Notes: a model not told the origin generated them from the letters alone. Counted from the stretch's first letter, positions 8,614 through 29,366 are shown. The stretch is DNA of 64,000 nucleotides from an uncultured Clostridia bacterium (GCA_944393605.1 CALYAO010000044.1:62001-126000), one strand, 5' to 3'. Numbers and translations: made by a program.

Positions 8614-11592
8614 ATGCCATACCATTTTGATACCTGGCGGAAGACCATTGATACCACGTATGCCGCGGTGGAAAAGGCGATATTTACAAGGCTTTGCGAC
8701 CTTGCTATCACGTTGTATCACACCAAGGAGCCGGTTCCTTTTTTGCGGCGCATGGAGGGCGAGGCGTGCTGCCCCAAGCGGGAGGAACGCTGGGGAGAGC
8801 TGTTTGATTGCGGCTGGTTCCACTTTGAGGGCACCATTCCCTCCGAGGCGGCGGGCAAGGCCGTGTCGCTGTACATTGATGTGGGCGGGGAGCTGTTGGT
8901 TTACGATGAAAACGGCATCCCGGTGCGGGGCCTCACCAACGTCAATACTCTGTACTATCCCGAGGACAAGGCGGGCAAGTGCGAACTGCCCATAACGGAC
9001 TGTGCGGCGGGCGGCGAGCCCATTGACATCTGGGCGGATGCCGGCTGCAACGACCTGGCGGGGATGGATACGGACAATGGGACGCTGCACGAAGCCTCCA
9101 TCTGTGTGATGAACCCCCAGATGAAGGGGCTGTTTTACGATATGGAGGTGCTCCGTGACCTGCTGGTGTGTCTGCATCCCGACAGCGCGGCATACCACCA
9201 GGTGCTGTATGCGCTGCATCAGGCGGCGCTTAAGATGCAGGACTATACCGAGGAAGAGGCGTTATCCGCGCGCGCCATCTTGGCGCCCCAGCTGGCAAAG
9301 CGGGGCGGCGACCCCTCTCTGACTGTCACCGCCATCGGGCATGCGCACATCGATCTTGCATGGACATGGCCCCTGCGGGAGACCTACCGCAAGGGCGCGC
9401 GCACCTTTGCCACGGCCCTGCGCAACATGGAGACCTATCCGGCATACCGCTTCGGCGCGAGCCAAATGCAGCTGTATGCCTGGATCAAGCGGGACCATCC
9501 GGCGCTGTATGAGCAGATCAAGCGGCGCGTCGCGGAAGGCCGCTGGGAGGTCCAAGGCGGCATGTGGGTGGAGGCGGACACCAACTGTTCGGGTGGTGAA
9601 GCGCTCATCCGGCAGTTTTTGTATGGCAAGCGGTTTGCAAAGGAAGAGTTTGGCCTGGATATGCGCATGCTGTGGCTGCCCGACGTGTTTGGATACACCG
9701 CATCCCTGCCCCAGATTTTAAAGAAATGCGGTGTGGACTATTTTATGACCATCAAGCTCTCGTGGAGCAAGGTGGATGTATACCCCCATCACACCTTTCT
9801 GTGGCGGGGCATCGACGGGACGGAGGTCTTGGCGCACATGCCGCCCGAGAACAACTATGTCAGCGCGGCGCTGCCCAACAGCCTGCGGGATGCGGAGCGG
9901 CAGTACTGTGACAAGTGCGTGTCGGACGAGTGCCTGCTGCCGTTTGGCATCGGGGATGGCGGCGGCGGACCGGGAGAACCCCATCTGGAGCGGCTGGAGC
10001 GGCTGGGCGACATGCAGGGCCTGCCCCGTGTGCGCCAGGGGTTTGCGGTGGACTTTTTTGACCGCCTGAACGAGGGCCGTGACCGGTATCAGACATGGGA
10101 AGGGGAGCTGTACCTCGAGTTCCATCAGGGCACCTACACCACACAGGCCCGGAGCAAACAGTACAACCGCCGCATGGAACAGGCGCTGCGGGAGTGGGAG
10201 TTTGCAATGGTGCTGTCGGGCGCGGATGCAGAGGCGACCCGCGCGGAGCGGGATGCCATCTGGCAGGAGATGCTGCTCTACCAATTCCATGACATCTTGC
10301 CAGGATCTTCCATCAAACGGGTCTATGACGAGAGCCTCGCGCGGTATGCGGACCTGCTGGCGCAGGTGGAGGCGCACACGGCGGCATGCTATGCGGCGCT
10401 GGGCAAGCGCTTCTCTGGCGGAGCAGATACCCTCCTTGCGGTCAACTCCCTCGGTTGGGAGCGAACGGGGTATGTCCCCTGCCAGGGCGGCTATAAGCGC
10501 GTGACCCTCCCGGCACTGGGATGCTGCGTGGTGGATGTGAGCGCGCCTGACATGCCATCCGGCGTGTTGGTTGCCCAGGAGAATTTGTTGGAAAATGACC
10601 TGCTGCGGGTGGAGCTGGGGCCCGATGGCGCCATTTCGCGCATGGTGGATAAACGAGCGGACCGCGAGGTGCTAGATGGCGTCGGCGGCCGGTTTGCGGT
10701 GTACTACGACAGCGGGGATGCCTGGGATTTCTCCATGGATTTCCGCGGCCGTGCGCCCGAGTATTTTGCGTTGGTTTCGTCCGAGGCGGCGGTATGCGGC
10801 GTATGCGCATCGGTGACCCAGACCTATCGGTATGGGGATTCCACATTGAAGGTCGTGCTGTCTTTGTTGGAAGGGGATAGCATGCTCACGTTTGCGGCGG
10901 AGGCGGACTGGCATGAGAAGGCGCGCATGCTGCGCGTGAGCTACCCTTCGGCGGTGAAGGCGGAAACCGCCACCTGCAACATCCAGTTCGGCAACTTAAA
11001 GCGGCCGACCACGGCCAACACCAGCTGGGAATTTGCCAAACATGAGGTGTGCGCCCATCACTTTGTGGACCTGTCCGAGCCGGGGTATGGGGTGGCGCTC
11101 TTGAGCCGGGATAAGTATGGATTCTCGGTGGCAGACAGCGTGCTGGACATGAACCTCCTGCGGAGTACCAGCTATCCTGACGAGAGTGCAGACCAGGGTG
11201 TCCATACCTTCACATGGGCGGTGTATCCGCATGCAGGCAGCCTGGAACAGTCGGATGTGGACCGGCGGGGCTATGAATTCAATCTGCCCATTCAGACCGC
11301 GCCGTGCGGCGGCGGCACGGCGCTGTCGGCCTCTTTGCTTGCGGTGGATGCGCCCAATGTCATTGTGGAGACGGTGAAGCCTGCGGAAGACGGCCAGGGC
11401 TTCGTGGTGCGGCTGTATGAGAGCCGCGGCATGCGCACCAAGGCGACGATTCGGTCTAGGATTCCGCTTTCGGGCATGGCGCTGTCGGATATGCTGGAAC
11501 AGGAGCAGGAAACGCTCGATATGTGCGACAATACGGCGCTTCTCACCTTTGCGCCGTTTGAGATCCATACGGTGCGGCTTTTCAAAAAATAA
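8614..11592 (+). CDS. Alpha-mannosidase, glycoside hydrolase family 38
   Basis: 992 residues without signal peptide, so cytoplasmic. GH38 enzymes are zinc-dependent retaining exo-alpha-mannosidases. Visible: an N-terminal beta domain; the active-site motif HAHIDLAWTW with H245 and D247 of the zinc site; the nucleophile Asp in WLPDVFGY (D357); a second zinc His in FHDILPGSS (H559); and long C-terminal beta domains. The ATG at 8614 follows GGAGGAG; the in-frame ATG at 8587 lacks a ribosome site. It is the first gene of the sugar-uptake block: the importer (11694-15004) would bring in alpha-mannosyl oligosaccharides, this enzyme would release mannose, and manA could feed the phosphorylated sugar to glycolysis. 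Substrate linkage cannot be told from sequence. Confidence 0.93.
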   Translation: MPYHFDTWRKTIDTTYAAVEKAIFTRLCDLAITLYHTKEPVPFLRRMEGEACCPKREERWGELFDCGWFHFEGTIPSEAAGKAVSLYIDVGGELLVYDENGIPVRGLTNVNTLYYPEDKAGKCELPITDCAAGGEPIDIWADAGCNDLAGMDTDNGTLHEASICVMNPQMKGLFYDMEVLRDLLVCLHPDSAAYHQVLYALHQAALKMQDYTEEEALSARAILAPQLAKRGGDPSLTVTAIGHAHIDLAWTWPLRETYRKGARTFATALRNMETYPAYRFGASQMQLYAWIKRDHPALYEQIKRRVAEGRWEVQGGMWVEADTNCSGGEALIRQFLYGKRFAKEEFGLDMRMLWLPDVFGYTASLPQILKKCGVDYFMTIKLSWSKVDVYPHHTFLWRGIDGTEVLAHMPPENNYVSAALPNSLRDAERQYCDKCVSDECLLPFGIGDGGGGPGEPHLERLERLGDMQGLPRVRQGFAVDFFDRLNEGRDRYQTWEGELYLEFHQGTYTTQARSKQYNRRMEQALREWEFAMVLSGADAEATRAERDAIWQEMLLYQFHDILPGSSIKRVYDESLARYADLLAQVEAHTAACYAALGKRFSGGADTLLAVNSLGWERTGYVPCQGGYKRVTLPALGCCVVDVSAPDMPSGVLVAQENLLENDLLRVELGPDGAISRMVDKRADREVLDGVGGRFAVYYDSGDAWDFSMDFRGRAPEYFALVSSEAAVCGVCASVTQTYRYGDSTLKVVLSLLEGDSMLTFAAEADWHEKARMLRVSYPSAVKAETATCNIQFGNLKRPTTANTSWEFAKHEVCAHHFVDLSEPGYGVALLSRDKYGFSVADSVLDMNLLRSTSYPDESADQGVHTFTWAVYPHAGSLEQSDVDRRGYEFNLPIQTAPCGGGTALSASLLAVDAPNVIVETVKPAEDGQGFVVRLYESRGMRTKATIRSRIPLSGMALSDMLEQEQETLDMCDNTALLTFAPFEIHTVRLFKK

Positions 11593-11642
11593 TCCACCTA
11601 ATAGAAAATTTTTCTATTAAATCTCGACAATTTTTGGACTAT

Positions 11643-11716
11643 ACTGGTAACGTAAACTGTGATTCATAGACCAATTAAAGGAGCAAGAGCCCTATGAACC
11701 TGCCTACGTTACCAGT
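11643..11716 (+). promoter_or_regulatory. 12-bp perfect inverted repeat spanning the start of the first permease gene
   Basis: ACTGGTAACGTA (11643-11654) recurs as its exact reverse complement at 11705-11716, inside codons 4-8 of the permease. The 50-base interval holds the ribosome site and the ATG. It could form an mRNA stem enclosing the start region, or be two operator half-sites. An AT-only inverted repeat (11599-11608 with 11610-11619) lies just upstream. Confidence 0.5.
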
Positions 11717-12632
11717 AAAAAGTCCGGCGACGAAAAAGAAGCTTTCTCTTCGTATCAAGGAAAATTATCAGGTCTACCTGATGATTGCGGTTCCTTTGAT
11801 TTTGCTGCTGGCATTTGTTGTCTATCCGTTGCTTTGGAACATCCGGTTTTCTGTTTATGAGTACGACGGATTTACAAAGTCGTTTAACGGCCTCTACAAT
11901 TTTAAGCGTGTGCTGACCGACCCAATGTGGTGGAAAGCGGTTGCAAACACGTTTATCTTCACCATTTTCAAAACGGTCATCATGTTCCCCATCGCCATTG
12001 TGTTGGCGGTCATCTTAAATGGAGACCTGCGCGGTCGCAATTTCATCCGTGCGGCTTATTTTACGCCCTATATCATCTCCATGGCCATTGCGAGCATGAT
12101 ATTCATTATTATGTTCAGCGGGTATAATGGCATCGTCAATGAGATTTTAAAAAGCCTTGGGATTATCCGAGAGAATGTGGAGTGGCTGGGCAGTGAGAGT
12201 ACGGCCATGGGCGTTGTTGTGGCTGTAAATATTTGGAAAGACCTTGGTTATAATATCCTGCTGGTTCTGGCAGGCCTGCAAAGCATCCCCAGAGAGCTGT
12301 ATGAAAGCGCGGCCATTGACGGCGCGAACAGCTTTAAAAAGCTTTGGTATGTGACGCTGCCGCAGCTGGGGCCGGTGCTGCAGCTCATCATTATGTTGTC
12401 CTTTGTGGGCAGCTTGCATGCATTTGACTCGGTGAACGTCCTGACGGCGGGAGGTCCCAATCATGCGACGGACGTGATGATGACCTATCTGTTTAACTAC
12501 TATTTCGGAACAGAAAGCACCTCACCGCAGCAGGGGTATGCGGCGGCGGTCAGCGTTGTGGCATCCATCATTATCGCGATCTTTACGCTGATCTATCTGA
12601 AGGCATCCAAAAAGATGCAGGATGCAGAGTGA
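11694..12632 (+). CDS. Sugar ABC transporter permease (MalF/LplB-like)
   Basis: 312 residues with about six membrane helices, the first at roughly residues 27-48. One of two inner-membrane subunits of a carbohydrate uptake (CUT1) importer. The EAA loop that docks to the ATPase is visible as ELYESAAIDGANSFKKLWYVTLPQLGP. ATG 11694 has AAAGGAGC upstream. It is followed after 13 bases by its partner permease and then by the binding protein. No ATP-binding subunit gene is present in the window, so the importer must use a shared MsmX/MsiK-type ATPase encoded elsewhere, as is common for CUT1 systems in Firmicutes. Likely cargo: an alpha-mannoside oligosaccharide, judged only from the neighbouring GH38. 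Confidence 0.92.
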   Translation: MNLPTLPVKSPATKKKLSLRIKENYQVYLMIAVPLILLLAFVVYPLLWNIRFSVYEYDGFTKSFNGLYNFKRVLTDPMWWKAVANTFIFTIFKTVIMFPIAIVLAVILNGDLRGRNFIRAAYFTPYIISMAIASMIFIIMFSGYNGIVNEILKSLGIIRENVEWLGSESTAMGVVVAVNIWKDLGYNILLVLAGLQSIPRELYESAAIDGANSFKKLWYVTLPQLGPVLQLIIMLSFVGSLHAFDSVNVLTAGGPNHATDVMMTYLFNYYFGTESTSPQQGYAAAVSVVASIIIAIFTLIYLKASKKMQDAE

Positions 12633-12645
12633 GGGGGGATGAGCA

Positions 12646-13506
12646 ATGAAAAGAAACAATTTCAATCGCATCAAAAAGATTGTGAAGAAGGTTTTGACCT
12701 ATGTGCTGCTCATAGCGGTTATGGTCATTCTGCTATTCCCCATTGCGTTTATTATTTTAAGTTCCTTTAAGAGCAACCGAGAATTTCTGTTGGGCGGAAC
12801 AAATTTGCTGCCGCAGCAGTGGACCCTGCAAAACTATGTGGAGGCATGGAACACCGCAAACTTCGGCCGGTATACCTTCAACAGCATATACTTTTCAGGG
12901 ATTGCGACCATCCTCATCCTGTTTGTTACCACAATGATGGGATACTGTTTTGACCGGGGTCAGTTTGTGGGCAAAAAATTCATCATGAGCCTGTATATGT
13001 CCACCATTTTTATCGCAGGTGCGACGACGGTATATCCGGTGTTTGAGCTGTGTGTCAAGTTGGGGATCAACAAATCCTTAAATGGCCTTATCATCGCATC
13101 CGTAGGTGGTTTGCAGGTCATGAATACCTTCCTGATCATGGGCTATGTCAAGACCATTCCGCGGGAGATCGACGAATCTGCAAAACTGGATGGGTGCAGC
13201 TTCTTCCGAATTTATTGGAATATGATCCTGCCGCTCATTAAGCCTATGGCTGCAACCGTTGGCATTCTGTCCTTCCAGGGGACATGGAATAGCTATATGC
13301 TGCCGCTGGCGTTCACCATTTCCAATGAAGACCTCCGTACGCTTACGGTGGGTGTTGTTGCGCTGAAATCCGAATCCCTGGGCTCTACCCCGTGGAACAT
13401 CGTTACGGCGGGTTCCACCATCGCACTGGTACCTGTTTTGATCATCTTTGCGATCATGAATAAACAGATTGTGAGCGGCATTGTGTCAGGTGCGGTGAAG
13501 GGGTAA
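12646..13506 (+). CDS. Sugar ABC transporter permease (MalG/LplC/YtcP-like)
   Basis: 286 residues, about six membrane helices, the first at roughly residues 14-38 (YVLLIAVMVILLFPIAFII). Second membrane subunit of the same CUT1 importer. The EAA loop reads EIDESAKLDGCSFFRIYWNMILPL. Ribosome site GAGGGGGGAT lies just upstream of ATG 12646. The permeases lie in tandem with a 13-base gap, so stoichiometric expression is likely. Between this gene and the binding-protein gene are about 125 bases without a clear terminator. Confidence 0.92.
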   Translation: MKRNNFNRIKKIVKKVLTYVLLIAVMVILLFPIAFIILSSFKSNREFLLGGTNLLPQQWTLQNYVEAWNTANFGRYTFNSIYFSGIATILILFVTTMMGYCFDRGQFVGKKFIMSLYMSTIFIAGATTVYPVFELCVKLGINKSLNGLIIASVGGLQVMNTFLIMGYVKTIPREIDESAKLDGCSFFRIYWNMILPLIKPMAATVGILSFQGTWNSYMLPLAFTISNEDLRTLTVGVVALKSESLGSTPWNIVTAGSTIALVPVLIIFAIMNKQIVSGIVSGAVKG

Positions 13507-13633
13507 GCGGCAGCGCCTGATCCAGTGTTCTGATTGGAGGCATGAAAGCGGCCTGGTATTGCAGATGGTGGTATGCCTTTCCGGGTTGCACATTTATAAA
13601 TCATTCAATTTTAATCATAGGGAGGAATGTATG

Positions 13634-15004
13634 ATGAAAAAAAGAGGGTTGGCGTGTTTGCTGGCAGCCTTGCTGCTGGTGACTGCCTTTGCGGGATGCA
13701 GCCCGCAGGAGCAGCAGACGCAGGCAAACAACGGGGAAAAAATCAAAATTTCTTTCTGGCTTAACTGGAACAATGTGGACATGAAAGAGCTGATTGAAGA
13801 AGTGTACAACAAGGAGAATCCGGACAACATCGAAGTTGAGGTCCGTGTTGTGTCCTCCAAGTATGAGGACATGATCAATATGGCATTCCTGTCCAACGAA
13901 GCGCCTGATGTCTTTGTTTCGCAGAACTCTGGTTTTGCGAAGAATCATGTGAAGGCGGGACATATTGCGGATATCACTTCTTATGTGGATGAAGAGTATA
14001 AGAACTCCTTCATTGACGGCGCGTTCCGTGACAACATCAACGTATTTGATGGGAAGATCTATGGCCTTCCCAATGCGATCTTTACCCGTAAGATGCTGTA
14101 CAATGCGGACCTGTTCAGAGAGGCCGGCCTGGATCCGGACGATCCGCCTTCGTCGTGGGTAGAGATCAAGGAAGCGGCAGAGAAGATCACGGCCATCGGA
14201 AACGGTGAGATTTACGGTCTGTCTCTTCCCATTGGGGATGCGGGCGCACTGCGGACCTGTGCGATCGAGTCGCCCGGCTTGAAATCGTATGGTCTGATCA
14301 ACGGCTGGAATCCGGTGGAAGGCAAGTATGAATTTGAAAAATATGCGCCTACCCTAAAGCTCTTGCGGGAAATGTATCAGGAAAACACCTTGTTCCCCAG
14401 CTCGGCTACCCTCAAGCAGGATCAGGAGCTGGTGTATTTCACGGCGGGCAAGATCGGTATGTGCATGATGCCGAGCGGCAAGGCACAGACCATGGGCATC
14501 AGCGACGATCTCAAATATGACTTTGACATGCGTTCGACAGACTTGCCTTGCTATGAAGGCGAGCCGGAGTATTACAACTCGCTGGAAGCGGTATCTGCAT
14601 TTTTGCTCTCTTCCACTTGTGAGAACAAAGACGCGGCCATGAAGTTCATGAAGTGGATGCAAACCCCGGAGTGTATGGGTGAGCTGATGAAGCGGGGCGG
14701 CGACATGGGCTTTTCCAAAGAAATCTACAATCAGGAGGAATATATTTCGGATGCACCTGCAGCTGAGCTGTTCCTGCCCGATGATTCGTATGAGTTCTTC
14801 CCGCCGCAGCCGGGCGGCCTCACCATCGAAGGGGATAAGCCCGAGACGGTGTATGCCAACATTCTGCTGAGCGATATTGATATTGACGCGGCAATGGCGG
14901 ACTTGACCCAACGGCACACGCAGGCACTTGAGAAATCCATTGCGGACGGTGTCAATGAGCTGGAAGACTACGTGTATGAAACGAATCCCATGAAGATTCA
15001 GTAA
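13634..15004 (+). CDS. Extracellular sugar-binding lipoprotein of the ABC importer
   Basis: 456 residues. Family-1-type solute-binding protein that captures the sugar outside the cell and delivers it to the permease pair. Signal peptide with lipobox LVTAFAGC (Cys near residue 22), so it is lipid-anchored; a Gln/Thr/Asn-rich spacer follows, then the bilobed domain opening with KISFWLNWNNVDM. ATG 13634 is eight bases after GGAGG; an adjacent ATG at 13631 is equally in frame. It stands last in the importer genes, and a GC hairpin directly after it may stabilise its mRNA, in line with the excess usually needed of binding proteins. Confidence 0.92.
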   Translation: MKKRGLACLLAALLLVTAFAGCSPQEQQTQANNGEKIKISFWLNWNNVDMKELIEEVYNKENPDNIEVEVRVVSSKYEDMINMAFLSNEAPDVFVSQNSGFAKNHVKAGHIADITSYVDEEYKNSFIDGAFRDNINVFDGKIYGLPNAIFTRKMLYNADLFREAGLDPDDPPSSWVEIKEAAEKITAIGNGEIYGLSLPIGDAGALRTCAIESPGLKSYGLINGWNPVEGKYEFEKYAPTLKLLREMYQENTLFPSSATLKQDQELVYFTAGKIGMCMMPSGKAQTMGISDDLKYDFDMRSTDLPCYEGEPEYYNSLEAVSAFLLSSTCENKDAAMKFMKWMQTPECMGELMKRGGDMGFSKEIYNQEEYISDAPAAELFLPDDSYEFFPPQPGGLTIEGDKPETVYANILLSDIDIDAAMADLTQRHTQALEKSIADGVNELEDYVYETNPMKIQ

Positions 15005-15018
15005 TGGAATAGACTGAG

Positions 15019-15042
15019 GGCGCGGGCGGTGATGCCCGCGCC
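15019..15042 (+). terminator. GC hairpin after the binding-protein gene (weak terminator or mRNA stabiliser)
   Basis: 9-bp perfect stem (15019-15027 with 15034-15042) followed by only three T. It would let part of transcription continue into the two-component genes while protecting the importer mRNA. Confidence 0.55.
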
Positions 15043-15066
15043 TTTGGGGCAGGGAGAGGAAGCGGC

Positions 15067-16920
15067 ATGGGAAAGGTCATACTGAATAATTGGCTGACCA
15101 GAAGGATTGCGCACGGGCTCTACCATATCAAACGCATTCGCCTGCTGGGCAACTGGTCATTGCAAAAAAAACTCGCGGTCTGCTTTGTGCTGATTGCAGC
15201 GGTTCCGCTTTTGCTTTCTGCTGTCATTCAGTATGTTTACATGACAAACTACCTGCCTGAAAAAGAAAACAGACAGCTTTATGCAACGGTGGTACAATGC
15301 GAAAAAAATATCCAGTATGAGTTGGACGGTTTTATGCAGCGGATCGATCTGCTGGCATACAATGCCGGGCTGGAGAACTATCTGTCTTTGCCTTACGGGG
15401 CATCTGAGGCGGAAGTATCCATGCGCATCAATCAAATTTGGAGTACACTCAATAACTATTATTTCAATGCGGATGACTCCTCCTATTCCAGGTTATACGT
15501 CAACTGGAATACGCCGTATGGATACCTGTTTAATGACGACAGCATCGTTCCTATGTCCCAGTTTTATCAAAATCCGCTCTATGTCGATGTGGATGTGTCC
15601 AGCGGTAAAACGGTGTGGATTAGACGGCATACGAGCCGAAACGGCTTGTCGGTGATCTCAGCAGTCAAGCCCATTTTGGATCTGCAAAACCAGAACCTGC
15701 TGGGTGTGATGGAGCTGGAATTTGACAGTGCGATCTTAAGCCAGATCGTCAGAGATATCGGGTATGAAAATCTGGGGAGCGTTCTGTTTGTGGATCAGCA
15801 AGGGGATGTGATTGTCCGTAACGATCAGACGGAAACGCCGGTGTATACGCCTGAATATATCCTATCCGTTTTGCAAACGATGGAACAGGAGGGGATTGGA
15901 ACCACCATTTTAGATGGACAGATGGTGACACGTGTCGTCAACCAGGCGACAGGCTGGACGTTGCTCACGTTGACGCCGGTTTCCCACACCTACCATGATG
16001 TCTATATACTCAGTGGCGTTATGCTGCTGATCACCGGGGTATTTATCCTGCTTGCGAGTGTCCTGAGCCTGCCCATTTCACACAGCATTTCTATGCCTAT
16101 CCGAAGATTGATTGCCGCGGTAAACCGGGTGGAAGAGGACAACTTCACCACCAAGCTGCCAGTGGACAGTGAGGACGAACTGGGGCAGCTCAGTATGTCC
16201 TTTAATGAAATGAACAGACGGCTTCACTACTTGGTGGAAGCGGTTTATAAAACGGAGATTGAGAAAAAAAACGCGGAGCTTTCATTGCTCCAATCCCAAA
16301 TCAACCCGCATTTTTTGTATAATACACTGGATACCATGAATTGGATGGCGCTGTCGGAGGGCAACCGCGAGGTGGCAAAGATGGCGCGGTCACTGGCGGA
16401 TTTCTTCCGGCACAGCTTAAGCGGCGGCCAGACGGTTATCTCGGTCGCAGAAGAGCTCAAGTTGGTGGAGAATTATCTGGATATTCAAAAAATACGGTTG
16501 GATGGGAAACTCAAGGTGTTAATTGATGTTCCAGACAACCTTCTTGCGCGCCGGACACTCAAGCTGATTCTGCAGCCCGTGGTGGAAAACTCCGTGCTGC
16601 ACGGCTACGGGGACAACGGCGGCATTGCGGTGCTCACCGTCCGCATTTCGGTGCGGGAGGAGGGGGAGGATCTCCTCTTTACAGTTGCGGATGACGGAGT
16701 TGGCATTCCACCTGATCGGATGGCAACGTTGCTTTCGGGCGACGGCGGAAAGGCCTATGGGATTCGAAACGTCAACCGGCGGATTACCATGTTTTACGGG
16801 CCGCAGTATGGTCTTTCCTATCACCCGGTCGAACCGCACGGCACCTTGGCCATCATTCGAATCGGTTTAGAGGCGGATGACGGGCAGGAACGAAAGAAGG
16901 AGGCGGAGAACGCTGATTAA
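15067..16920 (+). CDS. Sensor histidine kinase, YesM type
   Basis: 617 residues. Order: cytoplasmic N-terminus, membrane helix about 36-57, a ~250-residue extracellular dCache-like sensor region, a second helix about 315-340, HAMP (SISMPIRRLIAAVNRVEEDN), His-kinase domain with phospho-acceptor H415 in QSQINPHFLYNTLD, and an ATPase domain with the N box VVENSVLHGYG and G1 box VADDGVGIP. YesM/LytS-type kinases with this single-domain His motif usually pair with AraC-type regulators and sense extracellular sugars or the loaded binding protein. It ends overlapping the regulator gene. Probably controls the importer, the mannosidase and the LamG/SLH genes; that is inference from position. Confidence 0.92.
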   Translation: MGKVILNNWLTRRIAHGLYHIKRIRLLGNWSLQKKLAVCFVLIAAVPLLLSAVIQYVYMTNYLPEKENRQLYATVVQCEKNIQYELDGFMQRIDLLAYNAGLENYLSLPYGASEAEVSMRINQIWSTLNNYYFNADDSSYSRLYVNWNTPYGYLFNDDSIVPMSQFYQNPLYVDVDVSSGKTVWIRRHTSRNGLSVISAVKPILDLQNQNLLGVMELEFDSAILSQIVRDIGYENLGSVLFVDQQGDVIVRNDQTETPVYTPEYILSVLQTMEQEGIGTTILDGQMVTRVVNQATGWTLLTLTPVSHTYHDVYILSGVMLLITGVFILLASVLSLPISHSISMPIRRLIAAVNRVEEDNFTTKLPVDSEDELGQLSMSFNEMNRRLHYLVEAVYKTEIEKKNAELSLLQSQINPHFLYNTLDTMNWMALSEGNREVAKMARSLADFFRHSLSGGQTVISVAEELKLVENYLDIQKIRLDGKLKVLIDVPDNLLARRTLKLILQPVVENSVLHGYGDNGGIAVLTVRISVREEGEDLLFTVADDGVGIPPDRMATLLSGDGGKAYGIRNVNRRITMFYGPQYGLSYHPVEPHGTLAIIRIGLEADDGQERKKEAENAD

Positions 16921-17695
16921 GCTATTGATTGTGGATGATGAGCGGCACATTCGCGAGGGCATTGCCCGGGTACTGGACTATGAGAGCATCGGCGTGACGG
17001 TGGTTGGATTGGCGGAAAACGGCGCACAGGCCCTGGAATTGGCACGGGAAACGCAGCCCGACATCCTGCTGACGGATATCTGTATGCCTGTGATGGACGG
17101 GCTGGAGCTGTCCCGGCGGATTTTGTCAATCAGGCCGGAGATTAAAATTCTGATCATCAGCGGATACGATGATTTTGCGTATGCACGGCAGGCCATTGAA
17201 AACAACGTCGCGGGCTATCTCTTAAAGCCGGTGGATCCCGATGAGCTGTATGATCGGCTGGTGGCACTGTGCGCGCGTATCCGGTCCGAACGCATCGCGC
17301 AGCGGGAACTTACCTACCTGCGGCAGATGGCGGGCATTCGGGATGCCGACCCCATTCAGACGACCACGGGTGCGTCCCGGGTGGTACAGAGCATCATCGC
17401 GGATATCAATCAAAACTATGCCAAAAACATCAATTTAAGTGACCTGGCTGAGAAGTACAAGCTGTCTTACTCCTATCTCAGCTTGTTGTTTAAAAAAGAG
17501 ACCAACCTCAATATCATTGATTATTTAAACAGCGTTCGTATTGAGCGCGCAAAAGAGCTTATGCAGGACCCAACCATGCGGGTGAGTGAGATCAGCGACA
17601 TGGTGGGCATCGCAGACAGCCATTATTTCGCGCGGCTCTTTAAAAAATATACCGGGAAATCCCCAACGGAGTACCGGGCCATGTTTTTATCATGA
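16913..17695 (+). CDS. Response regulator with AraC-type DNA-binding domain, YesN type
   Basis: 260 residues from a CTG start. Receiver domain (LLIVDDERHIREGI; phospho-acceptor Asp in LLTDICMPVMDG is residue 55 from this start) and C-terminal AraC helix-turn-helix pair (INLSDLAEKYKLSYSYLSLLFK and ITDYL-like second helix, ending YFARLFKKYTGKSPTEYR). The CTG at 16913 is preferred: AAGGAGG (16897-16903) sits nine bases upstream, it gives the family-typical beginning MIKLLIVDDE, and the overlap with the kinase is eight bases. An ATG at 16877 (12 residues longer) has a poor ribosome site; a TTG at 16925 is also possible. Binds DNA as output of the kinase upstream. Confidence 0.9.
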   Translation: MIKLLIVDDERHIREGIARVLDYESIGVTVVGLAENGAQALELARETQPDILLTDICMPVMDGLELSRRILSIRPEIKILIISGYDDFAYARQAIENNVAGYLLKPVDPDELYDRLVALCARIRSERIAQRELTYLRQMAGIRDADPIQTTTGASRVVQSIIADINQNYAKNINLSDLAEKYKLSYSYLSLLFKKETNLNIIDYLNSVRIERAKELMQDPTMRVSEISDMVGIADSHYFARLFKKYTGKSPTEYRAMFLS

Positions 17696-17735
17696 CAGCA
17701 CCCAGGATGGTGTGAATTTGGAAGGAGAGGTTACT

Positions 17736-18956: not shown

Positions 18957-18977
18957 GAGAGGCGGGAGGCTTTTTAT

Positions 18978-21900: not shown

Positions 21901-22598
21901 GCTATGATCCGGACGATCCGGGTACCGGCGGCGGTGGCGGCGGTGGTGGCAGCAACAGCGGCGGTGGCGGCAGCTATCACGGCGGCGGCGGTGTGCTGGG
22001 GAACGGTGGTGTCAATATTGGAACGCCTGATCCGACGGATCCAGGTACGAATACTGAATTTACGGATCTTGCAAACACCCCGTGGGCCCAGGAGGCGATT
22101 GCTGGCCTTGTGGACTGCGGCATCGTAAACGGCAAGGGCGATGGCCTGTTTGCGCCCAATGACCAGGTGACGCGCGAAGAGTTTGTGAAGATGACGGTGG
22201 AGGCCTTTGGGCTCTATGATGCGTCCGCGGCCTGCACGTTTGCAGATGTGACAGAGGGACAGTGGTTCTATCCGTATGTTGCGAGCGGCGTTGCGTCCGG
22301 TGTGATTCGTGGGATCTCTGAAACCGCGTTTGGCGCGGGGCAGCCCATCACACGGGAGGACCTTGCAGTGATGCTGGTGCGTGCTGCAGGGGATGCGATC
22401 GCGGTGGAAGAAGGGAGCACAGCTTCCTTTGGCGACAGCGGCGAGATTTCGGATTATGCGGCAGCCAGCGTTGCCGCACTCCAAAAGGCGGGCATTGTAA
22501 GGGGCAGAGAGGACGGTCGGTTTGACCCCAAAGCGCCCTGCACCCGTGCGGAGAGTGCCGTGATGCTCTATAACCTGTTGAAGGTGGTGGGCAAATGA
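18978..22598 (+). CDS. Large SLH surface protein with Ig-like and LamG domains
   Basis: 1206 residues. Signal peptide (1-27); an Ig-like domain; two bacterial Ig-like (Big_4-type) domains between about residues 120 and 275, each with the VTWGTWTP or VTWTPDPA stretch; a LamG domain about 280-535 (DGLAIWTKAEAGGY, VMTWLDQSGNGNHL); further beta domains; a helical region about 750-980; a Gly-rich linker (983-1011); and three C-terminal SLH repeats. SLH repeats anchor it to wall polymer, displaying LamG for ligand binding. No enzyme motif is seen. It begins 21 bases after the previous stop and ends four bases into an alternative reading of the next gene, consistent with one operon. Confidence 0.85.
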   Translation: MSLTKKTVSVLLTLCMALGLFLLPVQAAGMAEINEIADTYQEGTVNISGVAYGSSKYVQLYLYDESGALKFYDQIAVSGGQFQRSIVVPLTWTPGEYTAKASYAGVWLTERTFHVADSNTFIGMVDIEAAIDQYETYTLPATATADYTNADQEVPVTWGTWTPALDTHVAGTYVNEGTAMVDGSAESVTLTLTVNAVSVTAVTAPGDMTVEIGDTVYLPQTVSGTLSNGKTAALAVTWTPDPATADTSSEKTLTFSGSVENYATPITVTVAVKAEVLPIPEDGLAIWTKAEAGGYELDDQGRVMTWLDQSGNGNHLVAPGEVNRPTIAQNAVNRQKALDFDGVNNYLTMEYDTPYVGDSTVIIVHKIRETAVSSANPSRAYTGIFNTAPQGATGNDIDTFLISDTTAQFRWNNVQDGRLPKDRSETWFNWDNTSFHSVGLRFVNNYVDGVWQNVDVTKDYDGTLTTTQYGVYQNTPTPLNNHVGFMLNGRVGGGGHRCLNSEVAEVIVYHRALTDEEFTQVENYLDDKYRKENRYTITEQTETPAGEGTVDLSAKLSNLSSTVLKEAVAIPVVYDGQTMVSQGATQVTGLASGASQAIVAEDMAVPADDTNKSVKYYLWDSLEDMHPLLFDTPVPEKSAYVPGTGDQVTITSVVPEGNVITVSGVTPGGADKKLTLLAAVAGQPLGKDSIYYAGEAMSGADGAFTAQFAMPDTAMDGTPLKAEFDLYVGGEEAERSEAASFSFVSESLRQSTIQKINDAAEDKDLAAIFAPDSEDRVALDALGLSMAVQYDALTDAGKQVMRDAVMNGRPYDVNDGTGLAAVFGAAYPYALLLQAEDAAEITEVLDTYASETFGMETVTGKKQEDLTAEEKTAVSEYLLAHMPDYPGDTAAFGQAYQLGYAFCQINSASYVSMATALSDNAALLGLTENSAYTSYLGMSDDGKEYVQTEMVKDAFESPFDTAEEVISSLTSAVNSYDPDDPGTGGGGGGGGSNSGGGGSYHGGGGVLGNGGVNIGTPDPTDPGTNTEFTDLANTPWAQEAIAGLVDCGIVNGKGDGLFAPNDQVTREEFVKMTVEAFGLYDASAACTFADVTEGQWFYPYVASGVASGVIRGISETAFGAGQPITREDLAVMLVRAAGDAIAVEEGSTASFGDSGEISDYAAASVAALQKAGIVRGREDGRFDPKAPCTRAESAVMLYNLLKVVGK

Positions 22599-22618
22599 GC
22601 ACAAAGGGAGGCATACAG

Positions 22619-25600
22619 ATGACCAAAAAACTAACGGCAGCGATCTTGGCTTTGGCGATGCTGCTTTCCTTGCTGCCGGGAATGGCGATGGCCGCGGACA
22701 CGGATTCCATTCCAACGGATGGGCTGTCCCTGTGGCTCAAGACGGATGAGGGTTCGATTGAACCCGACTCGGACGGCAGAATCTCCACCTGGAAGGATAT
22801 GTCAGGTATGGGCAATGACCTGACAGCGTCGGGCGACAAGCGGCCCACTTTAAAAGAGGGTGGCTACAACGGCAAGGACGTGGTTGCGTTTGACGGCAAC
22901 GCACTGACCAAGGAATTTGATGCAGTTTATGAAGGCAGTTCCGCCATCTTTTTGGTGATGCGCCTGCTGCCCGATAATAAGCAGTATGCGGGTATCTTCA
23001 ATACCGCCCCGGGCGGCCCCAAAGTGGGGGATTTTGATGCCTATTACATGGATGAGGAACAAATTCAGTTCCGCAGCAACAATCCGGGTGCAACGCCAAA
23101 CAACGAAAACCGGCCCTGGTACAAAGGCAAGCTGGACACGGAAGGGTTCCATGTGTATAGCATCACCATCCAGGATAACAACGGCCAGGCAACGGTGAAC
23201 TCCTACTATGACGACAAGACGACCGTCAAGGATTATATGAGCGTTGCGCCGGACCTCTGGAACCGCCAGTATGGGTATAACCTGGGTGCACGGGATGTGA
23301 ATGACAAGCATATGGCCAAGATGGAAGTGGCCGAGGTGATTGTGTATCAGCGGGGGATATCAAACGAGGAACGCGAAAGCGTCATGGAGTACTTAAACAA
23401 TAAATTTGGTTCCACTGGGGGCAGCCAGACGCCGGCAGCATCTAGCTCTCCGGCCGCATCTGGTTCCCCGGCGGCGTCTGGTTCTCCTGCGGCTTCCCCC
23501 TCTGCCCCGGCGGGCGGCGATGATATCGTGGGAACGCCCTATGAGGAGTCCTTCCGGACGCTGGCAGGCCTGGGGCTTCTGGAAGGGTATGAGGACGGCA
23601 GCTTTAAGCCCGAAGCACAGCTGACGCGGGCGGAGTTTGCGACCATGCTGGTGCGGCTCATGGGGTATGAGGAGGCACCCGCCGTAAGCGGTGTGACCTT
23701 CTCGGATGTGCCCGATAGCTACTGGGCGGCCAATGCCATCCGGTTTTTAGCGTCCAGCGGGGTAATCCGCGGCTATGAGGACGGCACCTTCCAGCCTGAC
23801 GGCCAGATCCTTTATCAGGATGCGGTCAAGATGCTGACCTGTCTGCTGGGCTATGGGCCTTATGCGGAGGTGAACGGCGGATATCCGGCGGGCTATCTGC
23901 GCGTTGCGCAGAGCCTGCGTCTGACGAGCGGCGTCGGAACACAGTCGGGTGAGATCACCCGCCAGGTTGCGGTGAAGCTCATGGACAACGCGCTGACCGC
24001 TACCGTGGCGCGGGAGACCAATATTGGCGCCGATGGGTCGGTCACGCTCGTGGATGGCGACATCCTGCTCAAGGAGTTCTTGGACGTCGGCCTGTACGGC
24101 GGCGTTGTGACGGACAATGGGATCACGTCGCTGAGTGGCGCAAGCCGGATTTCCAAGCAATCGGTGCAGATAGGCGACCAGGTGTATGCACGCGGCGACA
24201 GCAATGTCGGTGATTACATGGGATACTGGGTCAATTATTACGTGGATGAGAGCGAGACGGGCGGGGATACCATTTTATATGCGCTGCCCGACAGCAGCCG
24301 CAATGAGGTCCTGACCGTTTCGGCGGAGGACATCAGCCCTCAGACCACCAAACATGTGCTGTATTATGAAGAGGAAGACGGAGCCAGAACACAGAATGCG
24401 TCCATCTCTCCTGTTGCGTCCATGCTGTATAACGGCGCCGCGTTCCCTGACTACACGGCAGAGGACCTGATGCCCGCTTCGGGATCGGTGACGCTGATTG
24501 ACAACGACCGGGACGGAACGTACGATGTGGTTCGCACCACCGCATACCAGAACATTGTGCTGCAGAGTGTGAGTTCGCAGGACGACCTGGTGCTGAAGGA
24601 TATGTTTGATGCCAAATATAACCTGTCGCTGGATCTGACCAAGACGGAGATTTCGGTGGTGCGGGACGGTGCGGCGGCAACCTGGGAGGCCCTTGAAAGC
24701 GGGGATGTCCTCTCGGTGGCGGCACCCAAGGATCTGACGGCGGATCGGCTTTCGGTTTCCATTATTGCAAATTCCAAGAGCGTGACGGCAACCGTAAGCG
24801 AGTCCAGCGATGAGTATATCACCACCAGCAGCGCGCAATATGAAATCGCGCCCCACTTTAAGACCTTGCTGGCGGATCAGAAGATCGGCCCCATCCGTGC
24901 AGGGATGCAAACGGTCCTATACCTTGACTATGAGGGCAAGGTGGTTGCCAAGGAAGATGGTGCGTCGCAAAATGTTTATGGATACTTGATTGGTATCAAC
25001 ATTGGCAGCATGGGAAAAACAGAAATCAAGCTGTATAATTGGGACAGTGAAAGCTTTGAGATTTTGGAAACGCGGGAGAAGCTGCGGGTCAACGACCAGA
25101 GCGGCAAGCCGGAGGATGTGCTGACGGCCGGCGGTCTTTACGTGGATGGCACCACGCGGGATCAGTTGGTTGTCTATTCCACGGACAGTGAAGATAAGAT
25201 CACCCGCATTGACACTGCGCAGGACTATACCGGCAAATCCGTTTCAGAAAAGGAATACGCCATCAGCAATAACATCTTCCGTATCAGCAACAGCGGAACC
25301 TATTATCTGCGTGGCAGCGAGAGCTTTGAGGGACGCATCTATCCCAAGACGGATACCAAGGTATTTATCATCCCTCAGGATCTGGCGGACGAGTCACGGT
25401 ATGGTGCAAAGGACTTTTCTTACTTTACCAACGATTCGCAGTATACCTTCACTTCCTACGATGAGGACCTATACGGCACCCCAGGCGCCATTGTAGTGCG
25501 TGTGGGCGCAGGCGGCGGCGGCAGTGACAATACGACGCTCAAGCGGAGCGATACGATGATTGTGGAGAACCTGTCCGCTGCATATCAGGAAGATGTGGGC

Positions 25601-26074
25601 GAAGTGGTACGTATCAATGGTATGATGAGCGGCAGAAAGCAGAGCTTCAATATTGCACCTGACTATGACGGCGAACAGACGGGTGTTCCCATTGACAGCA
25701 TTCAGCCGGGCGACGTGTTGCAGCTGCAGCGGGACAATCAAGGCAATGTCATCTATATCGTGCGGCTCTATCAGGCGTCGGACGGCCGGATTAAGAGCGG
25801 ATTGCTCGGCTCCACCAACCTGCATACGCAGCGCGTGGTGATCACGGGTGATGTGGTGAAGGTTGATCCCGATACCAAGATGATCCTGGTGGACGACGGG
25901 ATGACCATGCCGCTCAGTTTGTCCAAAGCGACCTGCCTGACGTTGTCTGATCTGTCCAATCCGTCCCGCAACCGGGCGATTGAGGTATCGGATATTTTAG
26001 AAGATGACTACGTGATTTTAAAGATTCGGGATACCGCCGTCAGAGAGGTCATTGTGGTCAGAGGATTTGAATAA
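22619..26074 (+). CDS. SLH surface protein with N-terminal LamG and a large uncharacterised C-terminal region
   Basis: 1151 residues. Signal peptide (1-26), LamG domain about 28-265 (DGLSLWLKTDEG, ISTWKDMSGMGNDL), an Ala/Ser/Pro linker with repeated PAASGS units (265-301), then two clear SLH repeats and a degenerate third (about 304-460; SYWAANAIRFLASSGVIRGYE is typical). The remaining ~680 residues are beta-rich and I cannot assign them; similar tails occur in surface proteins of Clostridia. The ATG at 22619 has GGGAGG upstream; an ATG at 22595 overlapping the previous gene by four bases is in frame but would put eight residues before the signal peptide. Role: surface-attached glycan binding or scaffold, by inference. 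Confidence 0.83.
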   Translation: MTKKLTAAILALAMLLSLLPGMAMAADTDSIPTDGLSLWLKTDEGSIEPDSDGRISTWKDMSGMGNDLTASGDKRPTLKEGGYNGKDVVAFDGNALTKEFDAVYEGSSAIFLVMRLLPDNKQYAGIFNTAPGGPKVGDFDAYYMDEEQIQFRSNNPGATPNNENRPWYKGKLDTEGFHVYSITIQDNNGQATVNSYYDDKTTVKDYMSVAPDLWNRQYGYNLGARDVNDKHMAKMEVAEVIVYQRGISNEERESVMEYLNNKFGSTGGSQTPAASSSPAASGSPAASGSPAASPSAPAGGDDIVGTPYEESFRTLAGLGLLEGYEDGSFKPEAQLTRAEFATMLVRLMGYEEAPAVSGVTFSDVPDSYWAANAIRFLASSGVIRGYEDGTFQPDGQILYQDAVKMLTCLLGYGPYAEVNGGYPAGYLRVAQSLRLTSGVGTQSGEITRQVAVKLMDNALTATVARETNIGADGSVTLVDGDILLKEFLDVGLYGGVVTDNGITSLSGASRISKQSVQIGDQVYARGDSNVGDYMGYWVNYYVDESETGGDTILYALPDSSRNEVLTVSAEDISPQTTKHVLYYEEEDGARTQNASISPVASMLYNGAAFPDYTAEDLMPASGSVTLIDNDRDGTYDVVRTTAYQNIVLQSVSSQDDLVLKDMFDAKYNLSLDLTKTEISVVRDGAAATWEALESGDVLSVAAPKDLTADRLSVSIIANSKSVTATVSESSDEYITTSSAQYEIAPHFKTLLADQKIGPIRAGMQTVLYLDYEGKVVAKEDGASQNVYGYLIGINIGSMGKTEIKLYNWDSESFEILETREKLRVNDQSGKPEDVLTAGGLYVDGTTRDQLVVYSTDSEDKITRIDTAQDYTGKSVSEKEYAISNNIFRISNSGTYYLRGSESFEGRIYPKTDTKVFIIPQDLADESRYGAKDFSYFTNDSQYTFTSYDEDLYGTPGAIVVRVGAGGGGSDNTTLKRSDTMIVENLSAAYQEDVGEVVRINGMMSGRKQSFNIAPDYDGEQTGVPIDSIQPGDVLQLQRDNQGNVIYIVRLYQASDGRIKSGLLGSTNLHTQRVVITGDVVKVDPDTKMILVDDGMTMPLSLSKATCLTLSDLSNPSRNRAIEVSDILEDDYVILKIRDTAVREVIVVRGFE

Positions 26075-26088
26075 GGAATGTGCCTGCC

Positions 26089-26121
26089 CGGCTTCCGCAC
26101 AGCGCTGTGCAGAAGCCGGGG
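26089..26121 (+). other. Strong GC hairpin in the gap between two LamG/SLH genes
   Basis: CCCGGCTTC at 26089-26097 and GAAGCCGGG near 26113-26121 pair around a self-complementary middle (GCACAGCGCTGTGC). No T-tract follows, so it is more likely an mRNA processing or stabilising structure than a terminator. Confidence 0.5.
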
Positions 26122-26200
26122 CAATGGGCAGCAATATTAGTTTACATGGTTTAACAAGCGTTTTTTATGTAAGACAAACATAAAAGGAGGCGTTTTTAAG

Positions 26201-29200
26201 GTGAAAAAATTGGTATCTGGACTGCTGGTGTGCACCATGCTGCTGAGCGTGTTGTTGTTCCCGGCAGGCGCGACGGCGGAGGAGGCGCCCATTCCAACGG
26301 AGGGCATGTCTCTCTGGCTTTCGGCGGACAACGACTCCATGTCGGTGGATGCGGAAGGCAATGTGCTTGCATGGGAGGACAAGTCCCCGATGCAAAACGA
26401 GATTGAAATCGTTGGGAAACCTACCGTGGCACAGAATGTGGTGAATGGACAGCATGCGGTCAAGTTTGACGGCACATCCTTTGTGCGGACGGTGTTCGAC
26501 GAGCCCTATGTGGGCAGCGGCGCGTTCTTTGTGGTGGCGCGTATCGCAGAGGACAACACCGAATACGCGGGTATTTTTACCACTTCAATAGGGAATACGC
26601 TGGACAATGACGTTGATTTGTATCTGCTCAACATGACGCAGATGCAAATTCGCTCCAATCATCAAGGGGCGGCCAGCGGTGCCAACGACGAAAACCGTCC
26701 TCTCATCACCGATAAGAATGGGCTGGACACCGAGAATTTCCATCGTTTAGAAGCAACCATCAGTGACAATGGTTCGACCAGTACGCTGAGGACGTATTAC
26801 GACGACAAGAGAACCGTCAATTTTGATGCGGTGAATCCCGATTTCCGCTGGAACACACACTATGGCTACCAGATTGCAGCCCGTGGCCCTGGGGATAACC
26901 GGAAACTGAAAGGTGAGATCGCCGAGGTTATTTTCTATCAAGACGATCTGACCACAGACGAGCGGGAGGCCGTTGACGAGTATCTGAAAAACAAGTATTT
27001 CAACGAAGAGAATAAGACGGATGCGCCTGCGTTCGACGTATCCACACCCGAACCCACCCCGGAACCCACTCCGGTGGAGATCACATTTGAGAAGACTGCC
27101 CCTGACGTGAGTGAGATGTCCCTTAAGATGCGCACCTTTGAGGACACCATGGGGCACTGGTCCGAAGAGTATGTGAACCTGATGGCGGCAAAGTCCATCA
27201 TCAATGGTGTCACCGATACGACATTTGAACCCGATTCCCAGATTACCCGCGCGCAGTTTATCACCATTCTGGCGCGTGCGGTTGCGCTGGAGGAGGATGC
27301 GGCAGCATCGACCTACAGCGATGTTGCATCGGATGCGTGGTTTGCGGGCAGTATTGGTGCTGCGGTCAAGGCGGGTATCCTGCCGGGCGGCGACGGTGCG
27401 CTCAATCCCGACGAGGCGCTGACGCGGGAGGAGATGGCGGTGTTGTTCTATCGCACCATGCATCACTTCCATGTGGCATATGACATGAACGAAGCGCAGA
27501 TTACCGAGGCGCTGTCCAAGTTCACGGATGTCTCTGGCCTGTCCGAAGAGGCGCGCAAGGCGGTTGCCGCTTGTGTCAAGGCGGGCATCATCACGGGTAA
27601 GACGGACACCACCTTTGCGCCGGCAGACAATGCGACCCGCGGCGAGACGGCGGCTATGCTGCAGCGTATGCTGCTGGGGACTGGCCTGGTAACGGCCGGC
27701 AAGGGCGCAGATGTGCCGTTTGAGACCTACGAAGCGGAATATGCGGAGACCAATGCCGAGGTGCTGGTTTCCACTGCGTATACTGACAATGCTGCATTTG
27801 AAGCATCGGGCCGCAAGTGCGTGGTGCTCAAAGACACGGATGACTATGTGCAGTTTAACGATGTGGTTCCCGCAAACCGTATCACCTTCCGGTATTCGGT
27901 ACCCAAGGAGGATATGCGGTTCGTGGGCGGCAATAACTCCTATCCGGAGATGCCCATTGAAGGCAATGACATTGAAGGCACCATTGGCCTGTATGTGAAC
28001 GGCGAAAAGGTCAAGGATGTGGAGCTCAGCACCCGCAGTATGTATGCCTTTGAGGATGAAACTTCCACCACCAAGCCGTTCTACAAGCGGTGGTACCTGG
28101 ATGTCATCATCGATGATGTGACCATCAATGAAGGTGACAGCATCATGCTCAAGAAGGATGCACAGAGCACGCTGGACGAGTATCGCATTGACCTGATGGA
28201 TCTGGAGGTTGCGCCCGATCCCATTCCGCAGCCCGAAGGTTTCCTGAGTGCGGCGGACTTTGGCGCAACGCCCGACGACGACACGGATGACACCGAGGCC
28301 ATCCAGGCGGGTGTGGATGCCGCAATCGAGGCGGGCACCGGCCTGTACATCCCGGCTGGGTACTACAAGACGAGCGAGAAGATCATCCTGAATGAAAATG
28401 CCAACGTGGTAGGTGCCGGTATGTGGCACACCGTGCTGGACAACTATCTCAGCAACGAAGGCGCACTGGTCTGGATGGGCAGAGCGGGCTTCCTCATGTA
28501 TGGCGGTAACCTGCATGTCAGCGACCTGAAGGTAACGTCTTCCTGGAGCTATTCCCGGAACGGTGAAGGCAATGGCAGCATCGGCATCACAGGCCGTGGC
28601 GGCACACCGGGCATCGGTGACTTCGTCTTTGAAAACGTCTGGATCGACCGTACCGGCTGCGGCATCTGGGCAGAAGGCGGCATCAATGAAGAGCCTTCTT
28701 ATATTCGCAACAGCCGCTTCACCAACCTGTTTGCAGATGGCGTTCATTTCACGGACGGTTCGGCAAACATCATCGTGGAGAATAACTTCTTCCGTAACAA
28801 CGGCGATGACAACATCGCGGTGACGGGCGAAGAGGTGGGCGCAATCTACGACATCACATATCGTAACAACACGGCGCTGTGCAACTACTGGGGCCGCGGT
28901 CTCATGGTGGCAGGCTCCAGCAACATTGTGGTGGAGAACAACGTGCAGGCAGATTCCCCCCGCAGCGCAGGGATACTGGTGATGTCGGAGTCGGCATATG
29001 AATCCACCGACTGCACCAACAACACGGTGCGCGGCAATATCGTGCTTCGCAGCTCCTACAACCGTGGCCACGGTATGGGCGCCATCTCGCTGTCCAACAC
29101 GCTGGATGGTTCGCTGGTGGACTGCGATGTGTATGACAACGAGGTATATGGTCCCAACCTGTATGAAGGGATCAACGTCGTGGACAGAAACGGCGGCGTA

Positions 29201-29317
29201 CATGCGGAGATCATCAACAACATCGTGCAGAAGCCGGCAGACTTTGATGCGATCAACCCCAGCAATACACATGCGGAAACGCAGGTCTTGGTGGAAGGCA
29301 ATTTGGTTTTTGAGTAA
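26201..29317 (+). CDS. SLH-anchored multidomain protein with beta-helix resembling GH87 alpha-1,3-glucanases
   Basis: 1038 residues from a GTG start with AAAGGAGG upstream. Signal peptide (1-26); LamG about 30-265; Thr/Pro/Glu linker; three SLH repeats about 313-491; a CBM35-like beta domain about 505-672 (EAEYAETNAEV, VLKDTDDYVQF); and a right-handed beta-helix from 677 to the end, opening ADFGATPDDDTDDTEAIQAG as in pectate-lyase-3 type domains. FADGVHF (D846) and NNGDDNIAV (D869, D870) reproduce the Asp then Asp-Asp arrangement of GH87 alpha-1,3-glucanases/mycodextranases. If active it would cut a polysaccharide outside the cell to feed the importer. Alternative: a non-GH87 polysaccharide lyase or hydrolase with the same fold. 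Followed by a strong terminator. Confidence 0.85.
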   Translation: MKKLVSGLLVCTMLLSVLLFPAGATAEEAPIPTEGMSLWLSADNDSMSVDAEGNVLAWEDKSPMQNEIEIVGKPTVAQNVVNGQHAVKFDGTSFVRTVFDEPYVGSGAFFVVARIAEDNTEYAGIFTTSIGNTLDNDVDLYLLNMTQMQIRSNHQGAASGANDENRPLITDKNGLDTENFHRLEATISDNGSTSTLRTYYDDKRTVNFDAVNPDFRWNTHYGYQIAARGPGDNRKLKGEIAEVIFYQDDLTTDEREAVDEYLKNKYFNEENKTDAPAFDVSTPEPTPEPTPVEITFEKTAPDVSEMSLKMRTFEDTMGHWSEEYVNLMAAKSIINGVTDTTFEPDSQITRAQFITILARAVALEEDAAASTYSDVASDAWFAGSIGAAVKAGILPGGDGALNPDEALTREEMAVLFYRTMHHFHVAYDMNEAQITEALSKFTDVSGLSEEARKAVAACVKAGIITGKTDTTFAPADNATRGETAAMLQRMLLGTGLVTAGKGADVPFETYEAEYAETNAEVLVSTAYTDNAAFEASGRKCVVLKDTDDYVQFNDVVPANRITFRYSVPKEDMRFVGGNNSYPEMPIEGNDIEGTIGLYVNGEKVKDVELSTRSMYAFEDETSTTKPFYKRWYLDVIIDDVTINEGDSIMLKKDAQSTLDEYRIDLMDLEVAPDPIPQPEGFLSAADFGATPDDDTDDTEAIQAGVDAAIEAGTGLYIPAGYYKTSEKIILNENANVVGAGMWHTVLDNYLSNEGALVWMGRAGFLMYGGNLHVSDLKVTSSWSYSRNGEGNGSIGITGRGGTPGIGDFVFENVWIDRTGCGIWAEGGINEEPSYIRNSRFTNLFADGVHFTDGSANIIVENNFFRNNGDDNIAVTGEEVGAIYDITYRNNTALCNYWGRGLMVAGSSNIVVENNVQADSPRSAGILVMSESAYESTDCTNNTVRGNIVLRSSYNRGHGMGAISLSNTLDGSLVDCDVYDNEVYGPNLYEGINVVDRNGGVHAEIINNIVQKPADFDAINPSNTHAETQVLVEGNLVFE

Positions 29318-29327
29318 ACGAGCAATC

Positions 29328-29366
29328 AAAACAGGCAGAGCCAAACTGGCTCTGCCTGTTTTCTAT
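29328..29366 (+). terminator. Intrinsic terminator after the GH87-like gene
   Basis: 14-bp stem (29330-29343 with 29347-29360), three-base loop, preceded by A and followed by T on both sides, so it can work in both directions. Confidence 0.88.

Follow-up and report, generated by a model that had tools for sequence, protein, structure and literature searches.

Introduction

The glycan loci of Bacteroides are easily found because the susC/susD genes mark them. Gram-positive loci are without such a marker, and Gram-positive polysaccharide utilization loci (gpPULs) were defined instead by the combination of a degrading enzyme, a carbohydrate transporter, and a transcriptional regulator (PMC5320581). 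The paper giving that definition reports no SusC/SusD homologues, assigns polysaccharide binding to carbohydrate-binding modules (CBMs), and leaves SLH domains unmentioned in its text (PMC5320581). Here, we describe a locus at positions 8614 to 29317 of a 64,000-nucleotide stretch of DNA from an uncultured Clostridia bacterium (GCA_944393605.1 CALYAO010000044.1:62001-126000; "the window"), which encodes a putative alpha-mannosidase, a sugar importer, a sensor-regulator system, and four predicted secreted proteins, A to D. We consider it fairly probable that this locus is a gpPUL that has at its core a recurring surface module of two genes, B and C. Of all elements of the locus, it is the B-C pair, and not the LamG-like domain present in A to D, that is most general and also least known.

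A recurring pair of SLH protein genes

The pair consists of a gene for an SLH protein followed directly by a gene for a second SLH protein that carries a C-terminal core of about 600 residues (C-core). Its parts in the window are as follows.

18978..22598, +: protein B, first of the pair, with two Big_4 repeats, a LamG-like domain, a conserved region, and three SLH domains
21231..21899, +: conserved core of B, upstream of the SLH domains (profile match)
22059..22595, +: SLH domains of B
22595..26074, +: protein C, second of the pair, with a LamG-like domain, two SLH domains, and the C-terminal core; overlaps B by 4 nucleotides (nt)
24101..25903, +: C-core, about 600 residues

About 15 such pairs were found in the genome from which the window was taken (the own genome) and 53 in G076, a genome of a different family in the same order. 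A pair was called where a B-type match lay 300 to 1,600 nt upstream of a C-core. A same-strand B-type match was present upstream of 14 of the 22 C-core copies in the own genome, where 0.26 was expected, and upstream of 53 of 70 copies in G076, where 1.0 was expected. The pair was initially sighted in stretches that had partly been chosen by B matches; the counts given here come from complete searches for B and the C-core. Three of the unpaired copies in the own genome lie at contig starts, and at another site (C4:617-2554), C is longer and the B gene falls just beyond the distance limit.

The distances from B to the C-core cluster at 590 to 860 nt, indicating that B and C are directly adjacent genes, and the homology of the upstream partner reaches past the SLH domains in all 14 sampled pairs of the own genome. 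The same arrangement was seen in 10 of 19 sampled stretches from other families of the class. When C minus its LamG part was used as the query, matches were obtained in every genome of the order (95/95), and the C-core was present in 102 of 391 genomes of the class, representing about 20 families. B ranges in length from about 560 to 2,495 residues, with the conserved core and the SLH domains constant, and putative ligand modules either precede these parts in the same protein or are encoded by a separate gene just upstream. We found no description of the pair in the open-licence literature, although subscription papers could hold one.

The pairs tend to lie near sugar importers. Permease genes of the sugar ATP-binding cassette (sugar-ABC) type were located within 15 kb of 9 of the 15 pairs in the own genome (expected, 2.9; P = 6e-4) and of 41 of the 53 pairs in G076 (expected, 20.5; P = 1e-8), the P values being rough since they presume random placement in the genome. 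No permease excess was found near C copies without B. The neighbors of the sampled own-genome pairs included enzyme-like proteins (heparinase II/III-like, GH39-like, BNR/sialidase-like, SASA esterase, MGH1-like glycoside hydrolase, and pectate-lyase-like) and binding-module proteins (CBM9, CBM4/9, CBM11, and F5/8C).

The surface repertoire of G076 is unusually large: its genome of 4.1 Mb contains 53 pairs and roughly 70 copies of the C-core. C-type proteins without B, mostly away from glycan genes, were also observed in the own genome (L056, G000:C47; L098, G000:C97:120714-122444) and in relatives (L070, L071, L077, and L087), and these are perhaps the ancestral or main S-layer form.

Gene content and layout of the locus

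Every gene between 8614 and 29317 lies on the plus strand, in the order GH38, two permeases, binding lipoprotein, YesM, YesN, A, B, C, and D. The consecutive, unidirectional arrangement of a mannosidase, an importer, a YesM/YesN system, and four secreted proteins that the first-pass annotation had described was thus recovered in full. The features other than the pair are listed below.

8614..11592, +: GH38 alpha-mannosidase with no N-terminal signal (Pfam GH38N/mid/C/C2)
11694..12632, +: sugar-ABC (CUT1-type) permease 1 (PF00528, E = 2e-14; UgpA/MalF-like)
12646..13506, +: sugar-ABC permease 2 (PF00528, E = 2e-12; UgpE/MalG-like)
13631..15004, +: solute-binding lipoprotein (SBP_bac_1, E = 2e-27; lipobox-like ...TAFAGC)
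15067..16920, +: YesM-type sensor kinase (HAMP, His_kinase, weak dCache)
16877..17695, +: YesN-type response regulator with an AraC helix-turn-helix; overlaps the YesM-type kinase gene
17736..18956, +: protein A, with a signal sequence, one LamG-like domain plus about 95 residues, and no SLH domain
26201..29317, +: protein D, with a LamG-like domain, three SLH domains, and a GH87-like beta-helix
27701..29317, +: GH87-like region of D, CatAgl_D1 plus beta-helix (PF22815/PF22816 over cutoff, E about 1e-17)
28736-28738 (D846) and 28805-28810 (D869, D870), +: three conserved putative catalytic aspartates of D
29328..29362, +: predicted intrinsic terminator after D (16-bp stem, -30 kcal/mol, folding z -6.8)
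29609 (ATG) to 30335: gene E, encoding an SLH-only protein, past the terminator

By homology, the locus contains each component of the published gpPUL definition: enzymes (the GH87-like D and the GH38), a transporter (two permeases and an SBP_bac_1 protein), and a regulator (YesM/YesN). Four GH38 Pfam models, covering the N-terminal catalytic, middle, and C-terminal parts, matched the mannosidase above cutoff (E = 3e-87), and its best PDB relatives were an Ams1 fusion (7vqo, E = 4e-159) and an alpha-mannosidase (7ufr, E = 4e-138). Because its sequence has no signal peptide, it is probably cytoplasmic; it is a predicted exo-enzyme. The start of the binding lipoprotein was set at the signal Met at about 13631 instead of the mechanical open reading frame start at 13559; its best solved relative was MBP1 (4r9f, E = 9e-20). 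No ATPase gene for the importer was found within the cluster. Importers of the sugar-ABC class usually have no ATPase gene in the same cluster.

B, C, and D each carry two or three SLH domains plus a signal peptide, the latter judged by eye. This agrees with the earlier proposal that three of the four secreted proteins add SLH domains (three in B, two in C, three in D, and none in A) and that one protein adds a beta-helix enzyme-like domain; this protein is D, which bears SLH domains too. The C-terminal part of D is a distant homologue of the GH87 alpha-1,3-glucanases and a predicted enzyme, matching PDB entries 5zru (E = 2e-34), 7c7d (E = 2e-28), and 6k0m (E = 2e-21). Members of GH87 act by inversion and have three acidic residues within a right-handed beta-helix (PMC12394665). 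D846, D869, and D870 align with the aspartates mutated in the Agl-FH1 entries 6k0p, 6k0q, and 6k0s, i.e., that of the ADG motif and the first and second of the GDD motif. D thus resembles the GH87 enzymes (5zru, Agl-FH1 6k0m, and 7c7d) in its CatAgl_D1 domain, beta-helix, and three catalytic aspartates, but it differs from them in its distance and its fusion to SLH and LamG-like domains.

The gaps between the genes from the regulator onward are short (regulator to A, about 40 nt; A to B, 21 nt; B to C, -4 nt; C to D, 126 nt). Scans for promoters and terminators gave nothing clearly above shuffled sequences, the exception being the strong terminator directly after D, which is the predicted 3' end of the unit. 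Gene E is taken as a separate unit because it follows this terminator. An 865-codon antisense open frame over D (26747-29344, -) was discounted, as it is explained by avoided TTA, CTA, and TCA codons and had no Pfam match. On the other side, the locus is adjoined by a divergent gene for an SLH protein (5224-8097, -) with four tandem, near-identical repeats of about 175 residues, for which Pfam gave only weak matches to parts.

A rare jelly-roll domain in A to D

Proteins A to D each contain one domain of about 240 residues, with 30 to 47% pairwise identity and 34 invariant columns.

17826..18665, +: LamG-like domain of A
19812..20576, +: LamG-like domain of B
22709..23407, +: LamG-like domain of C (the copy modeled)
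26291..27013, +: LamG-like domain of D

A whole-genome search returned these four copies only (E = 1e-110 to 1e-120). The Pfam model Laminin_G_3 (PF13385) stayed below its curated cutoff for every copy, the best reaching 13.3 bits versus 27.6 (E = 0.09). We built a nine-row alignment from the four copies and relatives from a Sphingobacteriales metagenome-assembled genome and two viral contigs, and its profile matched the N-terminal region of sialidase B (E = 5e-4). With these nine sequences, the C copy was predicted to form a jelly roll (predicted local distance difference test score [pLDDT], 81.6; predicted template modeling score, 0.86); this model was used in place of one from the four sequences alone, which was unusable (pLDDT, 41.6). 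The best structural match was a phage tailspike (VIA Z 21.3; root mean square deviation, 2.8; 214 residues), and others were the domain of a GH54 arabinofuranosidase (Z 19) and sialidase domains of the lectin-like type. The model supports a superfamily-level assignment of the domain as a LamG/concanavalin-A-like jelly-roll beta-sandwich. The domain is therefore shared as first annotated, and the name LamG applies at the level of the fold and not as a Pfam call. Matches to clostridial toxin complex parts and trans-sialidases were taken to reflect the common lectin-type fold only, and no function is claimed from them.

The domain is rare, being present in 3 of 95 genomes of the order and 3 of 391 of the class, which rules it out as a general hallmark of such loci. 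The suggestion that LamG replaces the usual binding modules is accordingly not central: LamG is a local elaboration, and the B-C pair is the general element.

A rearranged counterpart in another family

A counterpart locus was found in G076 on the minus strand of contig C15. Its order is GH78, two GH87-like proteins, YesM, YesN, a binding protein, two LamG-like proteins, B, C, a Cu_amine_oxidN1 protein, a further LamG-like protein, RpiB, a ROK-epimerase fusion, a second binding protein, two permeases, and a GH2 beta-mannosidase. The B proteins of the two loci are 33% identical from end to end (1,220 columns) and the C proteins 31% identical, the G076 C having no LamG-like domain. A tree of the LamG-like domains of both loci was too weakly supported to separate an independent from a common origin of the copies. 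Since the components recur on this contig in rearranged form, the ensemble is real and has stayed together, with the order and the finishing enzymes differing. A check for the same gene order elsewhere thus returned the components together in one distant relative, but in a different order; together with the gpPUL definition, this recurrence supports the idea of a Gram-positive counterpart of a polysaccharide utilization locus.

Beside the permeases and the GH2 gene of the counterpart are genes for an RpiB-like isomerase and a fused ROK kinase and ribulose-phosphate epimerase (L016, 7861-8307 and 6299-7861). This set resembles an allose or psicose pathway, with alsK/alsE-type matches below the curated cutoffs.

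Proposed function and alternative explanations

In the mechanism that we propose, B, C, and D would be secreted and attached to the cell wall through their SLH domains, and A would be secreted without an SLH anchor. The LamG-like jelly rolls may keep one target polymer at the surface; all four proteins are predicted to bind the same sugar because they appear to belong to one transcription unit. The GH87-like helix of D would cut the polymer, the binding lipoprotein and two permeases would take up the fragments with energy from an ATPase whose gene lies elsewhere, and the GH38 would take off alpha-mannose in the cytoplasm. YesM may sense the fragments, with YesN turning the operon on. What is conserved in B and C would be a constant chassis used at many loci, to which locus-specific ligand modules are added, on B or just upstream. 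A more specific version, in which B and C are a dedicated modular pair of SLH-bearing Clostridia that forms a cell-wall complex handing fragments to the cognate ABC importer, C contributing its 600-residue core and B its exchangeable ligand modules, so that the number of pairs predicts the glycan repertoire, is put forward only tentatively and as less likely than not.

Several points weigh against this mechanism. AraC regulators show an excess within 15 kb of pairs, but in G076 the excess is gone when the distance is set to 10 kb, and at 2 of 14 sampled own-genome loci, neither an importer nor a regulator was present in the stretch examined. Pfam and PDB relatives of the C-core were sought, and none was found. 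LamG-like domains also serve as structural or protein-binding units. The paralogue distances of B and C in the own genome correlate weakly (Mantel r = 0.26, P = 0.08; SLH part, r = 0.31, P = 0.02), so coevolution of the two is suggestive only.

B and C might instead be ordinary S-layer building blocks, with paralogues at each surface locus serving coverage or phase change and their nearness to glycan genes reflecting the mere clustering of large secreted proteins. Both proteins do carry SLH domains, and all genomes of the order encode C-type proteins, some of them without B and away from glycan genes (L070, L071, L077, and L087-L089). However, the importer enrichment is found for the pairs and not for partnerless C copies, the order and spacing of the pair are tightly conserved, and ligand-type modules are located at the N terminus of B, which makes this explanation rather unlikely in our view. 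We also judge it improbable that the four LamG-like domains act in joining proteins to one another or in attachment to host cells or neighbors instead of in nutrient capture. Lectin-like domains from tailspikes, pilins, and further surface proteins make up many of the structural matches, and the anchorless A could dock on B to D; yet the domains are flanked by an importer-sensor operon on one side and a glucanase-like domain on the other, apparently in one transcription unit, and they recur in the counterpart.

The nature of the target sugar is more evenly balanced. An alpha-mannose or alpha-glucan target, as originally suggested, is reasonable given that the GH38 is near Ams1, D near GH87, and the binding protein near MBP1. 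It is less certain than then supposed, because the finishing enzymes of the counterpart, a GH2 beta-mannosidase and a GH78 alpha-rhamnosidase, take the place of the GH38, which is absent there. The target could be another host or plant glycan, with the GH38 trimming N-glycan-like mannose and the helix of D cutting a different alpha-1,3 linkage or acting as a lyase. D is distant from characterized GH87 enzymes, and the right-handed helix is common to GH87, GH28, and GH49 (PMC12394665); against this, D retains the three GH87 aspartates and the CatAgl_D1 domain. We regard such a different glycan as only slightly less probable than not. With a gpPUL as the preferred reading of the locus, its target polymer is probably mannose-containing.

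Comparison with known systems

The gpPULs of Roseburia and Eubacterium rectale (PMC5320581) have in common with this locus an enzyme, a sugar-ABC importer, an AraC-type regulator, and the intracellular finishing of fragments, whereas the SLH-anchored surface proteins and the B-C pair set this locus apart. The xylan, beta-glucan, and starch systems of Paenibacillus sp. JDR-2, whose genome is reported to have 77 SLH genes, likewise combine SLH-held enzymes bearing CBMs with ABC importers and cytoplasmic finishing enzymes, but the gene for the main anchored xylanase is located away from the cluster with its transporter, and the parts of that report consulted here do not mention a recurring SLH gene pair (PMC4765114).

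No SusC (TonB-dependent) or SusD domain was found in any protein of the cluster. The SusC/SusD loci of Bacteroidetes nevertheless share with the B-C loci a tandem pair of surface proteins that is repeated genome-wide near enzymes and regulators. B and C differ from SusC/SusD in having no detected sequence relation to them, in being predicted to be anchored to the cell wall instead of the outer membrane, and in their association with ABC import. By analogy, B-C may be a surface glycan-capture module that is functionally equivalent to SusC/SusD. The cluster of four LamG-like proteins lends itself well to testing, since a single transcription unit predicts one shared sugar for all of them. The conserved SLH pair would both flag an uncharacterized surface protein family and supply Gram-positive glycan loci with a marker of the kind that susC/susD gives to Bacteroides.

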